Positions 2,914 to 38,945 of a DNA stretch of 64,000 bases are shown here, piece after piece. The number at the start of each line of letters is the position of its first letter. Position 1 is the stretch's first letter. Under the pieces are notes generated by a model, which was not told the origin of the DNA, did not search any database, and saw only the letters and a program-made list of their open reading frames with translations. The DNA comes from Floccularia luteovirens (taxonomy: Eukaryota > Basidiomycota > Agaricomycetes > Agaricales > Squamanitaceae). The position numbers were made by a program, and so were the translations under genes. Where the stretch lies: positions 620,001-684,000 of the forward strand of contig VSJF01000006.1 in NCBI GenBank assembly GCA_009739215.1. Direction: 5' to 3'.

Positions 2914-5358
2914 ATGACACACAGGCGTGTTGCAGAGGGTAAATTGGAGGTTCCCAGCGATGCGTCATGGATAGATTTCCCAAGAAGCGATGGTGATCCA
3001 AGTTGTTTCCCAACGAATATCGTACGAGTCATAGATGATGATGGCCAAGTGAACTTTATGCAGCCGGTGGAATTGTCAGACTTTACTGCTATGAGGTGGA
3101 GGTTGCAAGCGGCAAAAGCTATAGCACTAAAGCTTGAGATGCCTAGTGAGTTGTACAATTGTTTCTTAGCGGGTAAATGCTGAATCTAAGCTATAGAGGG
3201 ACCTTCCTATATATTAAGGTCATGGCCAGCTGGTTATCGAATGTATGATCATCACAAGGGAAGCGCAGACGATCCAAGACATGACATCTATCTTTTTGGT
3301 ATGATTTGAATCTTCTCTTGAGTTGTAATGATGATCATCCCATATGACCCAGGTTCACCGAAAGGTCGTTTTCGATCCATCAACGAGTTCATTCCACATG
3401 CTATCTGGCTAATGGAAGATGATACTATGAATTCCTTGACTTGTGCTTGCAAATATTGCACGAAAAGAGCACAAAAAGAGATCACGGAAGCCATGAGCAG
3501 TATCAATATCCTTCCGTCCAATATAGCCAGAGCCAAAAGAGACCGGCCTCGGGACATCATATTTAAAAAGGAGAGACAACGCGAACATAAACTATACGCT
3601 GCAATCCAGAGAAAGGTTACCAAAGTTTCCGCGAATGTTGTCAAAACTCCCATGCTTGCGGAGCGTAACTCCGACTTGCGTGCGATGTGTTCAAAAACAA
3701 GTATGAATCTGAAAAGGTGGTATAGGGAGGGTGAGATGGTCTGGTGCGCATTAGATAATCCAATCCCCGTCCCGGGAAAAACGGGGGAGGCGATCGTGTT
3801 TTGGCCTGCCGTCGTTGACGAAGTAAGACTTAAGACGGTTGCTCACCCTCGAGATAAGAACGCCAAAAAACCATATACCAACTATATACCTTCATCATCG
3901 TCGTATCAAGATCCTCTAGGGGAGGAAGACGACAAGGGAGTTGTTCTCGAGATCGATGATTCACATCCGATGCCTTGGTCCGTGCAACAGTCAACTACTT
4001 ACAAAACGCGGCTCCTTGGAGTCTGGTATACATATGTAGTTGCAGATGAAAATGTTCTACCTTATCAGGCGCATGTTCCGTCTAAAGGGTTAATGGAGGC
4101 ATTGGCGGGCTTTGACCCAGAAAAACTGGATTTTGAAACCGGAAAACCGAAAAACTTCAATCCTTTTCCTCGAACCTATACACCCGCATTTCAAGATGCG
4201 GTTTCGCCATACGTGACTGCTTTACAAATTGGCAGTGCATTGTCTGTGTACTACAGTTTAACGGACCAATGGCAACTCAAGTATACTATTCCTCCTTCCC
4301 CTTCTCCTCCAGAACCACCTACCACAGAAGCACCGAGTAGCTCTAACTCCCGCATAACACCTCAGGCAGCCAGTAGTAGTACATCTGGGCACGCAACCAA
4401 CGATATGACAAAATCCGAGACTCAAGATGCAATACAGAATGTCTTAGGAGTCAATAACCCACCATCCAACGGTACCTCACAGTTTTCCCAATTTCGGTTT
4501 CAAGGGATGTGGTGGGGTGCGGAGCGAATATGGGTTGATGACTTTGTTCGCTTAAAAGTTCCCCGACGTAGCCTCGCTCCCAATGGTGCGCCGAATATAT
4601 ATCCTCCATCTGGTCCAGGAAAAAGTACGCTGGAAGCATGGCATGCCCTTGGCAAGCAAGGGGCAGAAGAGCTCGGAGCAGGTTCCCGAGGGGTGTTCAT
4701 GAAATTAGAGGGGTTGTACGTGATCGACTCCATGCAAGCAAGCGGGAGCACAAAGAAAGAATGTCGTGCCTGCGGAATGCTTTACGAACTTGCTGACGAA
4801 GATTGGGAAGAACCAATTGAACTGGTAAAGCAAGAGAGGCCGGGGCAGAATGACGAAGGCCGTATACCACCAGAAGGTCATTCTCAACTATCCACATCCG
4901 CCAGGACAGTACCCAGTACCCCTCTTATCCATCCAGGCTTTGAAAACCCTAGCTTGGAAAGTCAATCTGTAAAAAGCACGAAGCCACCCTTCCCGCTTCC
5001 TCAGGCGCCAAACGGATATAAATTTCGGCCAATCTTGCCACCAGGCTATGAAGCCATAATGAGCCTCAGCCTTTTGAGTGGCCGATATTATCCTAATATT
5101 TTAGCACACCCGCTTTTAGATTCAATTCTACGAGAGGCAGTGAGCATTCCATTAGACGAAGGAGGCTTAATGGAACACAATCATCTCTGGGCCCTGGAAG
5201 GGTTAACACCTGGATATCACAACTCTGTCGATCCCAAAAGATACAAGAAAAATCGGCTAGTTATGCTAGAAGATGCAGACAAAATAGCAGTGGTGCAGTT
5301 GCGGGAACACAGGGAGAAGCAGATAAAGGAAGCTGGGATGATGGAAGTGGATGGATGA
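2914..5358 (+). CDS. clr2: Clr2-like transcription-silencing protein
   Basis: Homolog of fission-yeast Clr2, a subunit of the SHREC chromatin-silencing complex (Snf2/HDAC-containing repressor) that acts at heterochromatin. Three exons are supported: 2914-3145, about 3191 or 3197 to 3298, and 3353-5358; both acceptors for the first intron keep frame. The recognisable block crosses two introns: YILRSWPAGYRMYDHHKG, then DDPRHDIYLFG, then RFRSINEFIPHAIWL, followed by a CACKYC cysteine pair. This is the signature of the Clr2 silencing domain in fungi. The middle carries acidic and Ser/Pro-rich spacers, and a second CxxC (ECRACGMLYEL) sits near 4765. About 780 aa in all. The family call is from remembered motifs; the partner complex is inferred from the family. 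Confidence 0.8.
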
Positions 5359-33701: not shown

Positions 33702-34263
33702 GGTGGTTGGGTGAGGGGCAGACTCGGTAGAACCAAAGAAGACTATGGGAATATAACCTTTATGGTGCAAATGACTGTACACGTCGCGGATATGGACTAC
33801 TTTGCATTGTGAATGTGATACACAAAGCACCCTCGAACGGCATGGATTCACCATGTAGTGATCATCACAAGCATTGCCTGGGCTATAATTAACTTAGTAG
33901 TACACGTTAAATGAGGTTTCCGAGTCGATTTGTACTAGTTCCGGACCTTTCTCGACCCGTTTTTCCCAGGTTTTCAACGTGTTCTGCAGCATGTAGAAAT
34001 GGTTACTTTGCAAAGAAATAGATCTGGAGTCTTTGGAGCAGTCACAGCTTCGTTTTCAATTAAAGCTGGGATCCCATACTCGGGACATAAACCGAACACT
34101 GGATGCCATGAAGAGTTGACGGACAAGGTTTCATTTAGAAAAAGTTGGTGTAAACTGGAATAGCTTCTGTGATCACTTTAGGCTAATATTTCCGATCTGG
34201 GAAATAGTAACTAAAGGTTGCAAGTTACCTCGTTGAGACTCGAGGATGTTTGAAGTCGTCTTC
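33702..34263. other. Intergenic, left flank of the transposon
   Basis: No gene recognised. The last bases, TGGATAC at 34264-34270, are the probable target duplication of the element that follows. Confidence 0.4.
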
Positions 34264-34270
34264 TGGATAC

Positions 34271-34329
34271 GATACGGCTGGCGAGAAGTCCACGCATCAT
34301 TTTGATGTTTGATGTTGATGTTTGCCCTT
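34271..34329 (+). repeat. Left terminal inverted repeat
   Basis: Begins GATACGGCTGGCGAGAAGTC and continues to TTTGCCCTTT. Matches the reverse complement of 38880-38938 apart from one extra T (GTTGATG against GTGATG). Confidence 0.9.
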
Positions 34330-34592
34330 TCCATTTTTGGAGCACTCGGTCACATGCCGTATCTGAGTGCGTTTTTTCCTTGTCTACTCATCAAAATGAG
34401 TGCAGATACAGTAGATAATACTGCTTATTATCATGAGTAAAACATTAAAATTTTCAAGTTATATTATTCCAATTAAACTAGCTGTAAATAAATGCAAAAA
34501 TGAATGTGATTGTAGTGGAATAATGATTTCTATTGCTGAATTACGTTGTAGAATGATGTATTAAGCTTGTATCACCTCGATACACTATGCAA

Positions 34593-37073
34593 TTAGTCAG
34601 AAACATTCAAGTCAATAGATTCAAGATGTGCGTTAATGGCATCCAATGAGCAAAGAGAGAGGTGGTGGCAGATTATCGAGCATTTGTGTTGATCAATAAA
34701 GTCTCTAAATCCGGTCAGTCCATGGTCACCAAGTCCCGATTTACTGGGTCACAAAAGATGCAATTAGAAAATTGGGATGGAAAAAGGACATGAATACTTA
34801 CCCAAGTGGTGTGTGCGTCATGGGATCAAAAAGGGTCATGATTGTCTTATTATTGTCGTTGGGATCCCGATCCAATGAGCCTAGTAAAAATCATTTAACA
34901 ATAATTTGAAGACGTATAACTAGTAGTATACTTACCCTGGATATCTGCAAACATATATTCACAAGCCGAGCTTTGGATGACAAAATGACTGAATGCCATT
35001 ATTGTGGCACCCAGTTTATCAGACCGGTTTCGCATCCCAAGAGTCCCAGAATACTTGCTGACAGCAGATGAGAGCCGACGGGGTTCAATGAGATAAATTG
35101 CAGATATATTATGTAATTCATTGTCATGAATTGCAAGGTGGACAGGTCTCTCCAATTCATTGTCATCGTTGTTGGCCTCCACTTCCTCACTGGTATGATT
35201 ATCCTGTTCCTGATAGTCATCAAGGACTTTAATGATGAATCCATCAGAAACTTGAAATGCTTGAGAACAATAAATGAGAAGGAAAAGGTAATATATGGCA
35301 AGCCTCTTACCTGCTATCTGTGCACCCTTGTTTTGAGCTTGTTTATCAAACAATGTAGCAAAATAGTCCATTCGTTTCAAACGGATTAGATCATTTTTGA
35401 GATATTCGAGTGAGTTTTTGAGTGTAATGTCAATGCCTTGTCCCTTTCCAATGTTGATTAACTTCTTTGCAACATATAGTTTGTCATTGATTGCAAACTG
35501 TGAATAGAACATTTTCGGATAAGTAATGCATTGTGATTATATAATGGTACACTGACTGCATATATATCTTTTGTCTTGCCCCGGTCTGAAGATGATAGGA
35601 TCATGGGTTTTAGATCAATATATCCATATTCTGTTGTGGATGCCTCCAAGATTGAAGGTGTGCCATTATCTTCATTAATCTCACATGAAAGACGCCTGAA
35701 TTTTATCAACTCCTTCGGATTTTCTGACTGCTGTGATTGTGCCATAGAAGCTGACTCAGAACCTCTATCACGTTCAAATGTACTTGTCAAAGGTGCGAAG
35801 TTTCCTCTGTCTATTGATTCGGACTTGATATTAGAAGTTTGTAGGTGATACATTCATAAATCTGAAACCTACCACTGCAAAATCTCTTGTTCCGGCCACC
35901 TCTTCCTGATGCTGGTGTTTGTGTTCCACGTCTAGAGGTACTTAATTGGCGCTTTCGTTTTCCATTGCTAATTGAGTCTAGCACTGACATCTCAAGCTCT
36001 TCACCTTCACCAGTTCTTTGAATAAACTACAATTTCGAAGCTACTAAACATGTATTTCAAAAACTTGAAGCAATGTATCTTACCCGATTTATATGAATAA
36101 ATAATTCAACAGAAAAGGCTGATCCACGATTTCCTTTTGACATTCCTGGAGGGGGGACAAGGTAGATGTCTCGTAATCCATGCAGATTATACTTGTTGTA
36201 AAACTGACGCAGAGTCAGAGTTTCATCTCCTAGTGGTAAAGCAAGATTCCGGCATATACGTAGCTCAGTCTCAGCCCTATTTTCATTAAAGGTGAGAATT
36301 AAAATTAAAACTTCAATGTTTTTGACATACGGCTGTAAGTCTGCAGAATGAGACTCAATCCAACGTGGATTCACACTTCGTACAATATACTCTTTGAGTT
36401 CTATAGACAAGGTAAGTTAATTGGCCTATACACTTGACAGTGGAATCTCGATTCACCTAAGAGTGTCATTGACTCAGCAAAAGGCTGGCAACACTTTCCT
36501 AAAATCCGGTCAACAGTATTTGGTGCATTGCTTCTTCGGCATTCATAGCTGACTGCGAAGGTAGGTGCAGATATATTTTGTCCTCGTAAACTCTCAAGTT
36601 CTATGGCTGGTGTTGCTGGGCCAAGTTGCCGGTTCAAGCGACCTTCCATAAGTTCTCGTCGACGAGTTTGCTCTAATGCAGTATGTTCATCGATTATGCC
36701 AACTTCTTGATGTGCTAATGTTATTTAATAGTTAATTGATAGTCTTGAAAAATATTAGCCAACTGTACGTACCCTGTCTTTTACATGTTCCGCATGGGTC
36801 ACTAACATTACTTCCACTAAGCCCACATTGTAAGCACTGCTTGAATCTCTCCTTTAGGTTATGTATGTGAGCTTGATGTAGCGGATGACTGCTTAATGAG
36901 GTGCAAACCTTGATAGTTCTAATCTCAGCATCACTTATGCCATCTTTATTCAGCTTTTTACAAAGCTGACATAGGATTGCATTAGTCTGCATACGTGGAA
37001 ACACTGTTCCACACCCATTGGCATCATTGTCAGGTCCACCGCAAGGCTGAGTGTTCTTCTGTGACTGAGACAT
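34593..37073 (-). CDS. Alpha-kinase (MHCK/eEF2K type) with N-terminal Cys-rich region, transposon cargo
   Basis: Atypical Ser/Thr protein kinase of the alpha-kinase family, about 650 aa in roughly ten exons. N-terminus: CGGPDNDANGCGTVF, ILCQLCKKL, CLQCGLSG and DPCGTCKRQ, a set of paired cysteines probably binding zinc. A middle region without recognised domains includes RDIYLVPPPGMSKGNRG and a basic Arg/Lys-rich stretch. The kinase domain is at the C-terminus: AINDKLYVAKKLINIGKGQG (ATP lysine in VAKKL), VSDGFIIKVLDD, YLIEPRR, ATIMAFSHFVIQSSACEYMF running into ADIQG (the family's catalytic D-x-Q), DPMTHTPLG, the glycine-rich GLGDHG, and HKCSIIC, the zinc His/Cys set. Stop at 34593-34595. All exons join in phase except one junction near 35815-35880 where a non-optimal donor is needed. 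Every key catalytic feature is present, so the kinase is probably active. Confidence 0.85.
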
Positions 37074-37216
37074 GTTGAGGTTGCTGACGCTGTGGATGTT
37101 CTGAAAGTTTCAAATGGCAGGAAGTTTAGACTGAATTTCGGTAGTTTTTTTAATAATTTAATAATTTATATTATGCAAGCACTATGAATCAGTTATTACT
37201 ACTACTGACTAAAATA

Positions 37217-38811
37217 TCATAACGACATAATTTCTAAGACAGCTGTGAAAATATCCCATGCATTTGTAAGTGAAATAAGTGGAAATCCCAGTTGCGCCAA
37301 TGCATCATCTGCCTGTGCTTGAAACTCATCATCAACAAATTTAAGAACCTCATCTCGACCTTCAATACCACCCAATTCTTCACGAAGTTGCTTAATGAGA
37401 TCACAGCTAACTGTTATTGAACAGTCTCGAGCATTAGCGCGTGCACTTTCTGGAACCAACCATACGTGGCGAGGTGACATTCCACTTGGTAATAGTTTCT
37501 CTTTTTGCCGTTTTAATGCATGATTGTTCCAATATTCACGAAATTCATCCAAGCGCTGCTGTACAAGTGGGGGCCAGAGCCATTTGAAAATCTGACTACA
37601 AAGAATTTAGTATGAAATGAACATACATAGACAATGATACATACACATGTAACCAGTTATTTGAGTTCAGTACTCCTGCCGCTTTTCCAGCGAAGAGTAC
37701 TTCTTTGATACTATGACCCTCACCCTGACGTTTCCACCTCCAAAATGATTCAATTGGAGTATTATGCTTACTTTGAACCTGAACGGCAGTTGGCCATTTA
37801 TCAATGACAAAATCAGGAGCAGCATGAAGCCTAAAGTATTGATTACTAAAATATTCTTCTAAATGATAAAAAATAACTTACCGAAGTGTTTTGTGACAGT
37901 GGACCATATCTGAAATTTCAGAACCTTTATCCGTTGTGAGTTGAATTGGAATGCCTGATTATATTGTGTTTAACGAGTACTACAAATGCTGGAAAAAGTA
38001 CTTACATTCATACAGCTCTACAAAGTCTAGGAATGCATGTCCAATAGCTCGTGATGTACGGACATCAGGAAGGACACGTAGATAAGGTACAAAGGATGAA
38101 AATTCATCTTTGAAAGCATAAATTGGAAGGGAGAGACCATGCCCCATTCGAAGCGCCTGTTCTGCAAGTTTCTCATGCCCATCTGAGTGTAGCTGATGCC
38201 AAGGACCAAGACAATCCAGTGGAACACGCTTGATTGTATTACGACGGGAAAAACAGAGGCGCTGGTTAAATTCAGGCTCGAAATGATCATGAAGTATCTG
38301 TCGCAAATCATCACTAACTTGAAATGAGAAAATAATATAGCAAAAAGATATAGCAAGTTAACACACCGTTTCAAAAGAATGCCAGTATTGGCAAGCCGTT
38401 GTCGGACTTGTGCAACACCCCATTTCCCAGCAAAATCATCCGCTTTGATGTCAACAACTAGTTGGATGGTGTCTTGAATAGGAGTCACCTCGTTTTTTCG
38501 AACACTCTTGATCTCTAGTCTTTTGCGCAGCTCATATAGCTTTGATCGTCTGAGATGAGAGTTAGCATTGATAATGACAGTAGCTTAGGAGTACTAACTT
38601 TATACATAGACCAAATTCTTGCTCTAATCGTGCCATTTGTTGATCTGCAGTGAGACCCGAACCATTGTTTTCTTTGGCATATTGATTGAAGGCCGGCCGA
38701 AGCTCATTATCTGAGGGGTCTAAATTGCATTTATAAGTATAATAACATACATAGGGCTGTTATTCACTTACAGTCATTTTCACCCCATTGGTTACCTGAA
38801 GATTTGGGCAT
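37217..38811 (-). CDS. Integrase-fold (rve-like) DDE transposase
   Basis: Recombinase of the mobile element, about 450 aa in roughly seven exons. Start at MPKSSGNQWGEN; stop at 37217. The N-terminal part is helical and basic (RRSKLYELRKRLEIKSV, KWGVAQVRQRLANTG), probably DNA-binding. The catalytic core has the three acidic residues in order: Asp in WHQLHSDGHEKL, Asp in IQLTTDKGSE about 67 residues later, and Glu in KHNTPIESFWRW about 43 further on. That spacing fits the retroviral-integrase fold. After it come IFKWLWPPL, DEFREYWNNHALKRQKEK and PSGMSPRHVW, as in agaricomycete proteins annotated as integrase core domain. No stop or frameshift found, so it may be functional. Confidence 0.85.
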
Positions 38812-38879
38812 TGCACTGAGCAGATGCAACGATGATGTACGGAGTGTTGTTGTCACAGTGTCGTGTCACGTGGTGACAC

Positions 38880-38938
38880 AAAGGGCAAACATCACATCAA
38901 ACATCAAAATGATGCGTGGACTTCTCGCCAGCCGTATC
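38880..38938 (-). repeat. Right terminal inverted repeat
   Basis: Reverse complement of the left repeat; ends CGCCAGCCGTATC and is followed by TGGATGC. Confidence 0.9.
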
Positions 38939-38945
38939 TGGATGC

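Follow-up and report, generated by a model that had tools for sequence, protein, structure and literature searches.

Within the 64-kb stretch of the Floccularia luteovirens genome analysed here (the window; positions 620001-684000 of contig C19, in a genome of 27 Mb in 22 contigs), a complete DNA transposon occupies positions 34273-38936 in the register of its family, running from TACGGCTGGC to GCCAGCCGTA and holding two genes, one for a DDE transposase and one for an alpha-kinase. The element is real and mobile, and was apparently active recently. We consider it probable that it is an autonomous two-gene IS3EU transposon whose alpha-kinase works for the success of the element by phosphorylation. 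The interpretation given in the initial annotation of this locus is thereby supported in part: one mobile unit, a kinase under selection and a recurring gene pair were all borne out, while the belief that such a pair had not been described before was not.

The element and its copies

The core observation, a transposon that carries a transposase together with an alpha-kinase, is confirmed as real with one correction. The left terminal inverted repeat (TIR; 34273-34330, plus strand, starting TACGGCTGGC) measures 58 nt and the right one (38880-38936, minus strand, finishing GCCAGCCGTA) 57 nt, differing by a single 1-nt indel. Complementarity is perfect over 45 bp (34271-34315 against 38894-38938) and extends over 15 more bp after a 1-nt offset. 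The initial annotation had placed the element at 34271-38938, which is two bases too wide on either side: in the family register, the outer GA/TC pair counts as flank. A perfect 6-bp target-site duplication, TCTGGA, can be read from the sequence at 34262-34267 and 38937-38942, the right copy being flush with the tip CCGTA; among random position pairs of the window, 0.33% show a chance 6-mer match within 0-10 nt. The left duplication is separated from the left tip by TACGA (34268-34272), a 5-bp partial repeat of the tip TACGG, which is unique to the window copy (missing in all six sister copies described below) and may have arisen by imprecise processing during insertion. The near-perfect 7-bp duplication proposed earlier (TGGATAC/TGGATGC) was rejected, having one mismatch and the wrong register compared with the six sister copies, and is better read as the perfect 6-mer beyond the tip repeat.

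Both genes lie on the minus strand, their coding regions 143 bp apart, and both are open after predicted splicing, in agreement with the earlier reading of exactly two genes without evident lesions. We assembled the gene models manually, placing GT..AG introns (predicted lengths of 49-62 nt in both genes), and corrected them against one sister copy and annotated relatives. The transposase gene (37217-38811) comprises seven exons (37217-37595, 37645-37830, 37882-37954, 38006-38313, 38367-38549, 38599-38719 and 38772-38811) and encodes 429 aa with the catalytic residues D159, D226 and E269, and the alpha-kinase gene (34593-37073) comprises 11 exons (34593-34743, 34802-34880, 34936-35259, 35311-35497, 35557-35810, 35873-36026, 36084-36276, 36331-36400, 36457-36714, 36773-36851 and 36909-37073) and encodes 637 aa. 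A premature stop that appeared common to the six sister kinases in the first gene model was rejected: we interpret the stretch as a 57-nt intron, in the window lineage as in the sisters, which agrees with the absence of corresponding residues from three annotated Suillus relatives. Comparison also led us to change two other intron borders.

In Pfam scans of the first model versions (431 aa for the transposase, 653 aa for the kinase), the transposase matched PF24764 (rva_4) with 43.3 bits (cut-off 26) and the kinase PF02816 (Alpha_kinase) with 84.4 bits (cut-off 21.3) over profile positions 17-185 of 185. The final models differ from the scanned ones by three splice changes, two of which lie outside the matched stretches, the third adding three residues within the kinase domain with no named motif affected. 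The catalytic D, D and E columns of the transposase are kept in 39, 40 and 40 of 40 aligned homologues (out of 87 found); a sequence-profile search of this protein against solved structures gave no match. The kinase combines a Cys-rich N-terminus (C11, C21, C35, C38, C61, C64, C75 and C78), which matched no Pfam family at E<=1, a middle part with basic clusters (KRKR at 278, NKRF at 301) and a C-terminal alpha-kinase domain. Located in the domain were YVAKKL (399), FSHF (543), ADIQG (558), GLGDHG (591) and HKCSIIC (607), which we take to represent the alpha-kinase set of ATP-site Lys, D-x-Q, G-rich loop and zinc His/Cys residues. The motif retention claimed earlier thus stands for the D-x-Q, the G-rich loop and the zinc set, whereas the ATP-site Lys, present as YVAKKL, is a putative assignment, the alignment to MHCK A spanning the C-terminal motifs only. 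Sequence matches to MHCK A (E=1.5e-6) and eEF2K (E=2e-4) put the protein in the same family as these host signalling enzymes, from which it differs in being transposon-borne and in its Cys-rich N-terminus.

A genome search with PF02816 found nine loci, one in the window, six dispersed elsewhere in the genome and two that are diverged relics (L013 and L020), and gave matches in none of 14 control genomes; here and below, genome-wide counts of copies and matches are lower bounds. Seven of the nine loci sit inside elements of the window-element kind, and the earlier suggestion that such elements multiply atypical kinases therefore holds for this genome. The six sister elements, about 75% identical to the window element in DNA, each contain matches to both genes, in the order and co-orientation found in the window, between 115-bp TIRs whose arms are identical in five copies and slightly diverged in L015. 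They measure 4766-4768 bp in five copies and 5147 bp in L015, which has a 381-bp insertion. Perfect 6-bp duplications flush with the tips flank all six, each different (ATAACA, GACGAT, ACCAGC, AACATA, AGTTTC and GTCCTG); the tips read TACGG..CCGTA in the window and five sisters, and TATGG..CCGTA in L015. The recurrence of the pair, side by side within TIRs of the same kind at unrelated loci, was thus found in seven copies. Since five near-identical sisters differ pairwise by only 2 to 7 substitutions, transposition of the family looks recent. Both genes are open in five of the seven copies (the window and four sisters); in L019 the transposase is hit by a nonsense change and the kinase by a frameshift, and in L015 the transposase is open and the kinase is interrupted by the 381-bp insertion.

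The ends, the 6-bp duplications and the near-identical dispersed copies show that the element moves as one unit. That a transposase-only element might stand beside a host kinase, or that the inverted repeats might be a product of chance, is an explanation we give practically no credence; nothing beyond the view of a single window was found in its favour, and we rejected it in light of seven dispersed two-gene copies, at unrelated loci, which agree in gene order and orientation, have related ends and are flanked by 6-bp duplications.

Searches with the parts of the element recovered little else. The window transposase gave 38 exon-sized matches, which represent the seven elements and distant relics at C22:890218 and C2:16471, and PF24764 matched each of the seven elements once, seven times in all up to E 0.1; exon by exon these PF24764 matches are weak (E 0.014-0.033), six of seven exceeding the curated cut-off when joined with their neighbours, and the Escherichia coli control matched below the cut-off. 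Full copies carrying only the transposase, which would have spoken against the pair, were sought and none was seen among seven (two of the seven kinase genes being damaged), although the distant transposase relic at C2:16471 has no kinase match in its 9.9-kb stretch. The sister TIR matched 14 times (at the twelve sister ends, at C14:1679785 and at one end of the window element), and the window TIR additionally matched a single end at C18:579016. As to TIR pairs flanking unrelated DNA, these searches recovered, besides full elements, the single end at C18:579016 and, at C14:1679785-1679946 (L025 4786-4947), a 162-bp miniature element with the family ends TACGG..CCGTA and a perfect GACGTC duplication, which is a non-autonomous derivative of the family.

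Several older remnants were observed. L013 (4735-5037; C2:820184) is a lone alpha-kinase fragment with the G-rich loop and HxCxxxC not nearby, and L024 (4960-5319; C2:16471-16836) is a transposase relic of about 29-30% identity, with stops, near the contig start. On C22, a decayed transposase relative (L026 5307-6578, 23-24% identity) lies about 3 kb from a kinase relic (L020, about 4834-5028), in the same order and on the same strand and without recognisable ends; this arrangement is suggestive of an older pair and is not used as proof. The L020 kinase relic seems interrupted by a roughly 327-bp repeat that also occurs in L013.

Placement in IS3EU and relatives in other fungi

By its ends, TACGG..CCGTA, and its 6-bp duplications, the window element belongs to the IS3EU superfamily, whose hallmarks, according to the available text of PMC10045372, are TA..TA ends and, as a rule, duplications of 6 bp, the rust members ending in TAYGG..CCRTA (PMC12730594, in part). 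Duplications of 6 bp flank all eight two-ended copies (six sisters, the miniature element and, after allowing for the 5-bp tip repeat, the window element). The TIRs exceed 30 bp (58/57 bp in the window, 115 bp in the sisters), the TA..TA termini in their fungal form TAYGG..CCRTA are present in the window, sister and miniature elements, and the window transposase is of the integrase-type DDE kind typical of the superfamily.

The closest systems are the TET-carrying IS3EU families of seven rust species and Tuber indicum (Kojima 2025, PMC12730594), all of which, in the portion of that article available, have a TET/JBP gene between the transposase and the alpha-kinase. They share with our element the ends TAYGG..CCRTA, TIRs of more than 30 bp, the combination of transposase and alpha-kinase genes in one element and, as stated there for the rust families, the 6-bp duplication. 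In contrast, our element has only two genes, 143 bp apart, which are co-oriented in the window and sisters, whereas the transposase and alpha-kinase genes are oppositely oriented there, and it resides in a mushroom lineage instead of rusts and T. indicum; the kinases were compared by description only. The supposition that no described family has this gene pair therefore had to be given up, as the pair is already mentioned in that work, where the term alpha-kinase appears twice in the text available and its role is left without comment. IS3EU/GingerRoot elements in general share the TA..TA termini, the 6-bp duplication and an integrase-like DDE transposase, but the word kinase was not found in the accessible text of PMC10045372. 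Styx of Zymoseptoria, as far as the accessible part of PMC10853768 describes it, is likewise a fungal IS3EU-derived element with extra genes, a 36-bp TIR, a 6-bp duplication and a proposed ancestor encoding two proteins, but has four coding sequences with no alpha-kinase named in the element. KDZ/Plavaka and other TET/JBP-carrying transposons, in the part of PMC12730594 available, are likewise DNA transposons of fungi that have taken up a regulatory enzyme, but their transposases differ and the enzyme is a dioxygenase instead of a kinase. A Tet_JBP search of this genome gave no match, a negative that carries no weight because the control was likewise without a match anywhere.

In the literature searched, only PMC12730594 joins alpha-kinase with IS3EU, an earlier description in subscription papers or Repbase reports being possible, and among publications on alpha-kinases or kinases and transposons and on fungal kinomes no other account was recognised as describing a transposase/kinase pair. 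While the superfamily and the pairing are already known, what is new within that literature is a TET-less form with two co-oriented genes, along with the evidence that a transposon alpha-kinase is under selection.

Relatives in other fungi were sought by a word-based search that requires shared 5-residue words. It found 87 transposase relatives, 84 of them bearing a species name and coming from Agaricomycetes (Boletales, Agaricales, Polyporales, Atheliales and others), and five kinase relatives, from Hygrophoropsis aurantiaca and four Suillus species; a second, alignment-based search gave the same five. The kinase (54% identity) and transposase (68%) relatives of H. aurantiaca are each on an 8052-bp contig, apparently one and the same; none of the listed transposases lies on a contig equal in length to that of any of the four Suillus kinases. 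Judged from these relatives alone, the host would fall within the mushroom lineage, perhaps in Boletales. Among viral contigs there were nine pattern matches, none of them a relative.

Selection and the possible role of the kinase

Comparing the window genes with those of sister L018 (Nei-Gojobori method, own script, bootstrap ranges), we obtained for the transposase 86.9% amino acid identity over 429 codons, a nonsynonymous divergence (dN) of 0.072, a synonymous divergence (dS) of 0.964 and a dN/dS of 0.075 (0.050-0.111), and for the kinase 74.3% identity over 635 codons, dN 0.160, dS 0.913 and dN/dS 0.175 (0.134-0.225), the latter composed of 0.123 in the N-terminus, 0.166 in the middle part and 0.201 in the kinase domain. 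Introns are 63.3-66.6% and exons 77.5-82.6% identical. These ratios indicate constraint on both proteins, weaker on the kinase, and the two genes have similar dS, which fits their joint inheritance since the split of the two lineages. At the level of sequence, kinase and transposase have diverged together, with purifying selection acting on the kinase and its catalytic and zinc motifs kept, as was foreseen when the kinase was first proposed to be selected on.

By analogy with retroviral integrases and IstA, and judging from its fold and catalytic triad, the transposase would bind the inverted ends and insert the element where the target is cut with a 6-bp stagger. The kinase would work for the element, as its co-divergence under purifying selection and its retained motifs suggest; it may enter the nucleus, to which the basic clusters point, and its phosphorylation could raise the success of the element via the transposase or transpososome, by countering host silencing, or by steering host repair. 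Of these, we favour the countering of silencing as a first guess, given that TET dioxygenase genes occur in related elements and that one copy, L015, has CpG-type decay. In this copy (C1:17500-27400), which lies about 22 kb from the start of its contig, 17 of the 18 substitutions that separate it from L018 are of the C>T or G>A type, with 13 at CpG, hinting at methylation-linked decay.

Several observations weigh against a kinase that serves the element. Two of six sisters have a damaged kinase (the L019 frameshift and the L015 insertion), and therefore the kinase need not be supplied in cis. Its rate of evolution is about double that of the transposase, and a structure model of a Suillus relative (P0002, 5 sequences) was unusable, with a mean predicted local distance difference test (pLDDT) score of 33. 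Within about 5 kb, on either side, of the L013 kinase relic there is no transposase match, and within about 5 kb of the L024 transposase relic no kinase match. In the word-based search, 87 transposase relatives stand against five for the kinase, the close kinase relatives look limited to Boletales, and only one of the five has a listed transposase on an equal-sized contig; because of the shared words that this search needs, these counts establish neither rarity of the kinase nor universal pairing.

A passenger captured in an ancestor and carried without aiding movement, perhaps useful to the fungus, seems improbable to us. The weaker constraint on the kinase compared with the transposase would suit it, as would the perfect duplications still flanking the two sisters with damaged kinases, though the damage may postdate insertion; yet a dN/dS of 0.175 over a dS of 0.9 and the presence of the kinase gene in every full copy argue against it, and a neutral passenger would not readily explain why IS3EU elements of distant fungi also carry an alpha-kinase (PMC12730594, in part). 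A narrower proposal, which overlaps with a kinase working for the element and which we regard as conceivable but rather unlikely, makes it a direct transposition cofactor that phosphorylates the transposase or a transpososome subunit and switches cutting or insertion, with no anti-silencing role. The co-oriented pair kept as a unit with similar dS, the restriction of the element to two genes that are both selected, and the basic clusters suggestive of the nucleus are consistent with this, and nothing specific contradicts it, but the relative counts of that word-based search give no sign that the transposase needs the kinase.

Implications for fungal alpha-kinases

No account of a kinase function for a eukaryotic DNA transposon was found in the literature searched. 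Beyond this genome, and with slightly more doubt than conviction, we suggest that the alpha-kinase could be the standing second gene of one fungal IS3EU branch, a signalling enzyme belonging to the transposon and under selection to phosphorylate the machinery of transposition or silencing. As the pair occurs here in multiple young copies, five of the seven being intact, the role of the kinase in the transposon is open to experiment. In the available part of one study, two table columns, which by its text are rusts, contain 79 and 39 PF02816 genes, and the family is called highly expanded in rusts (PMC4469406). If our suggestion is true, the large rust alpha-kinase counts and the Boletales kinases would be transposon genes and not an expanded host signalling family. 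The element also cautions that alpha-kinase expansions in basidiomycete gene-family tables may include transposon genes.

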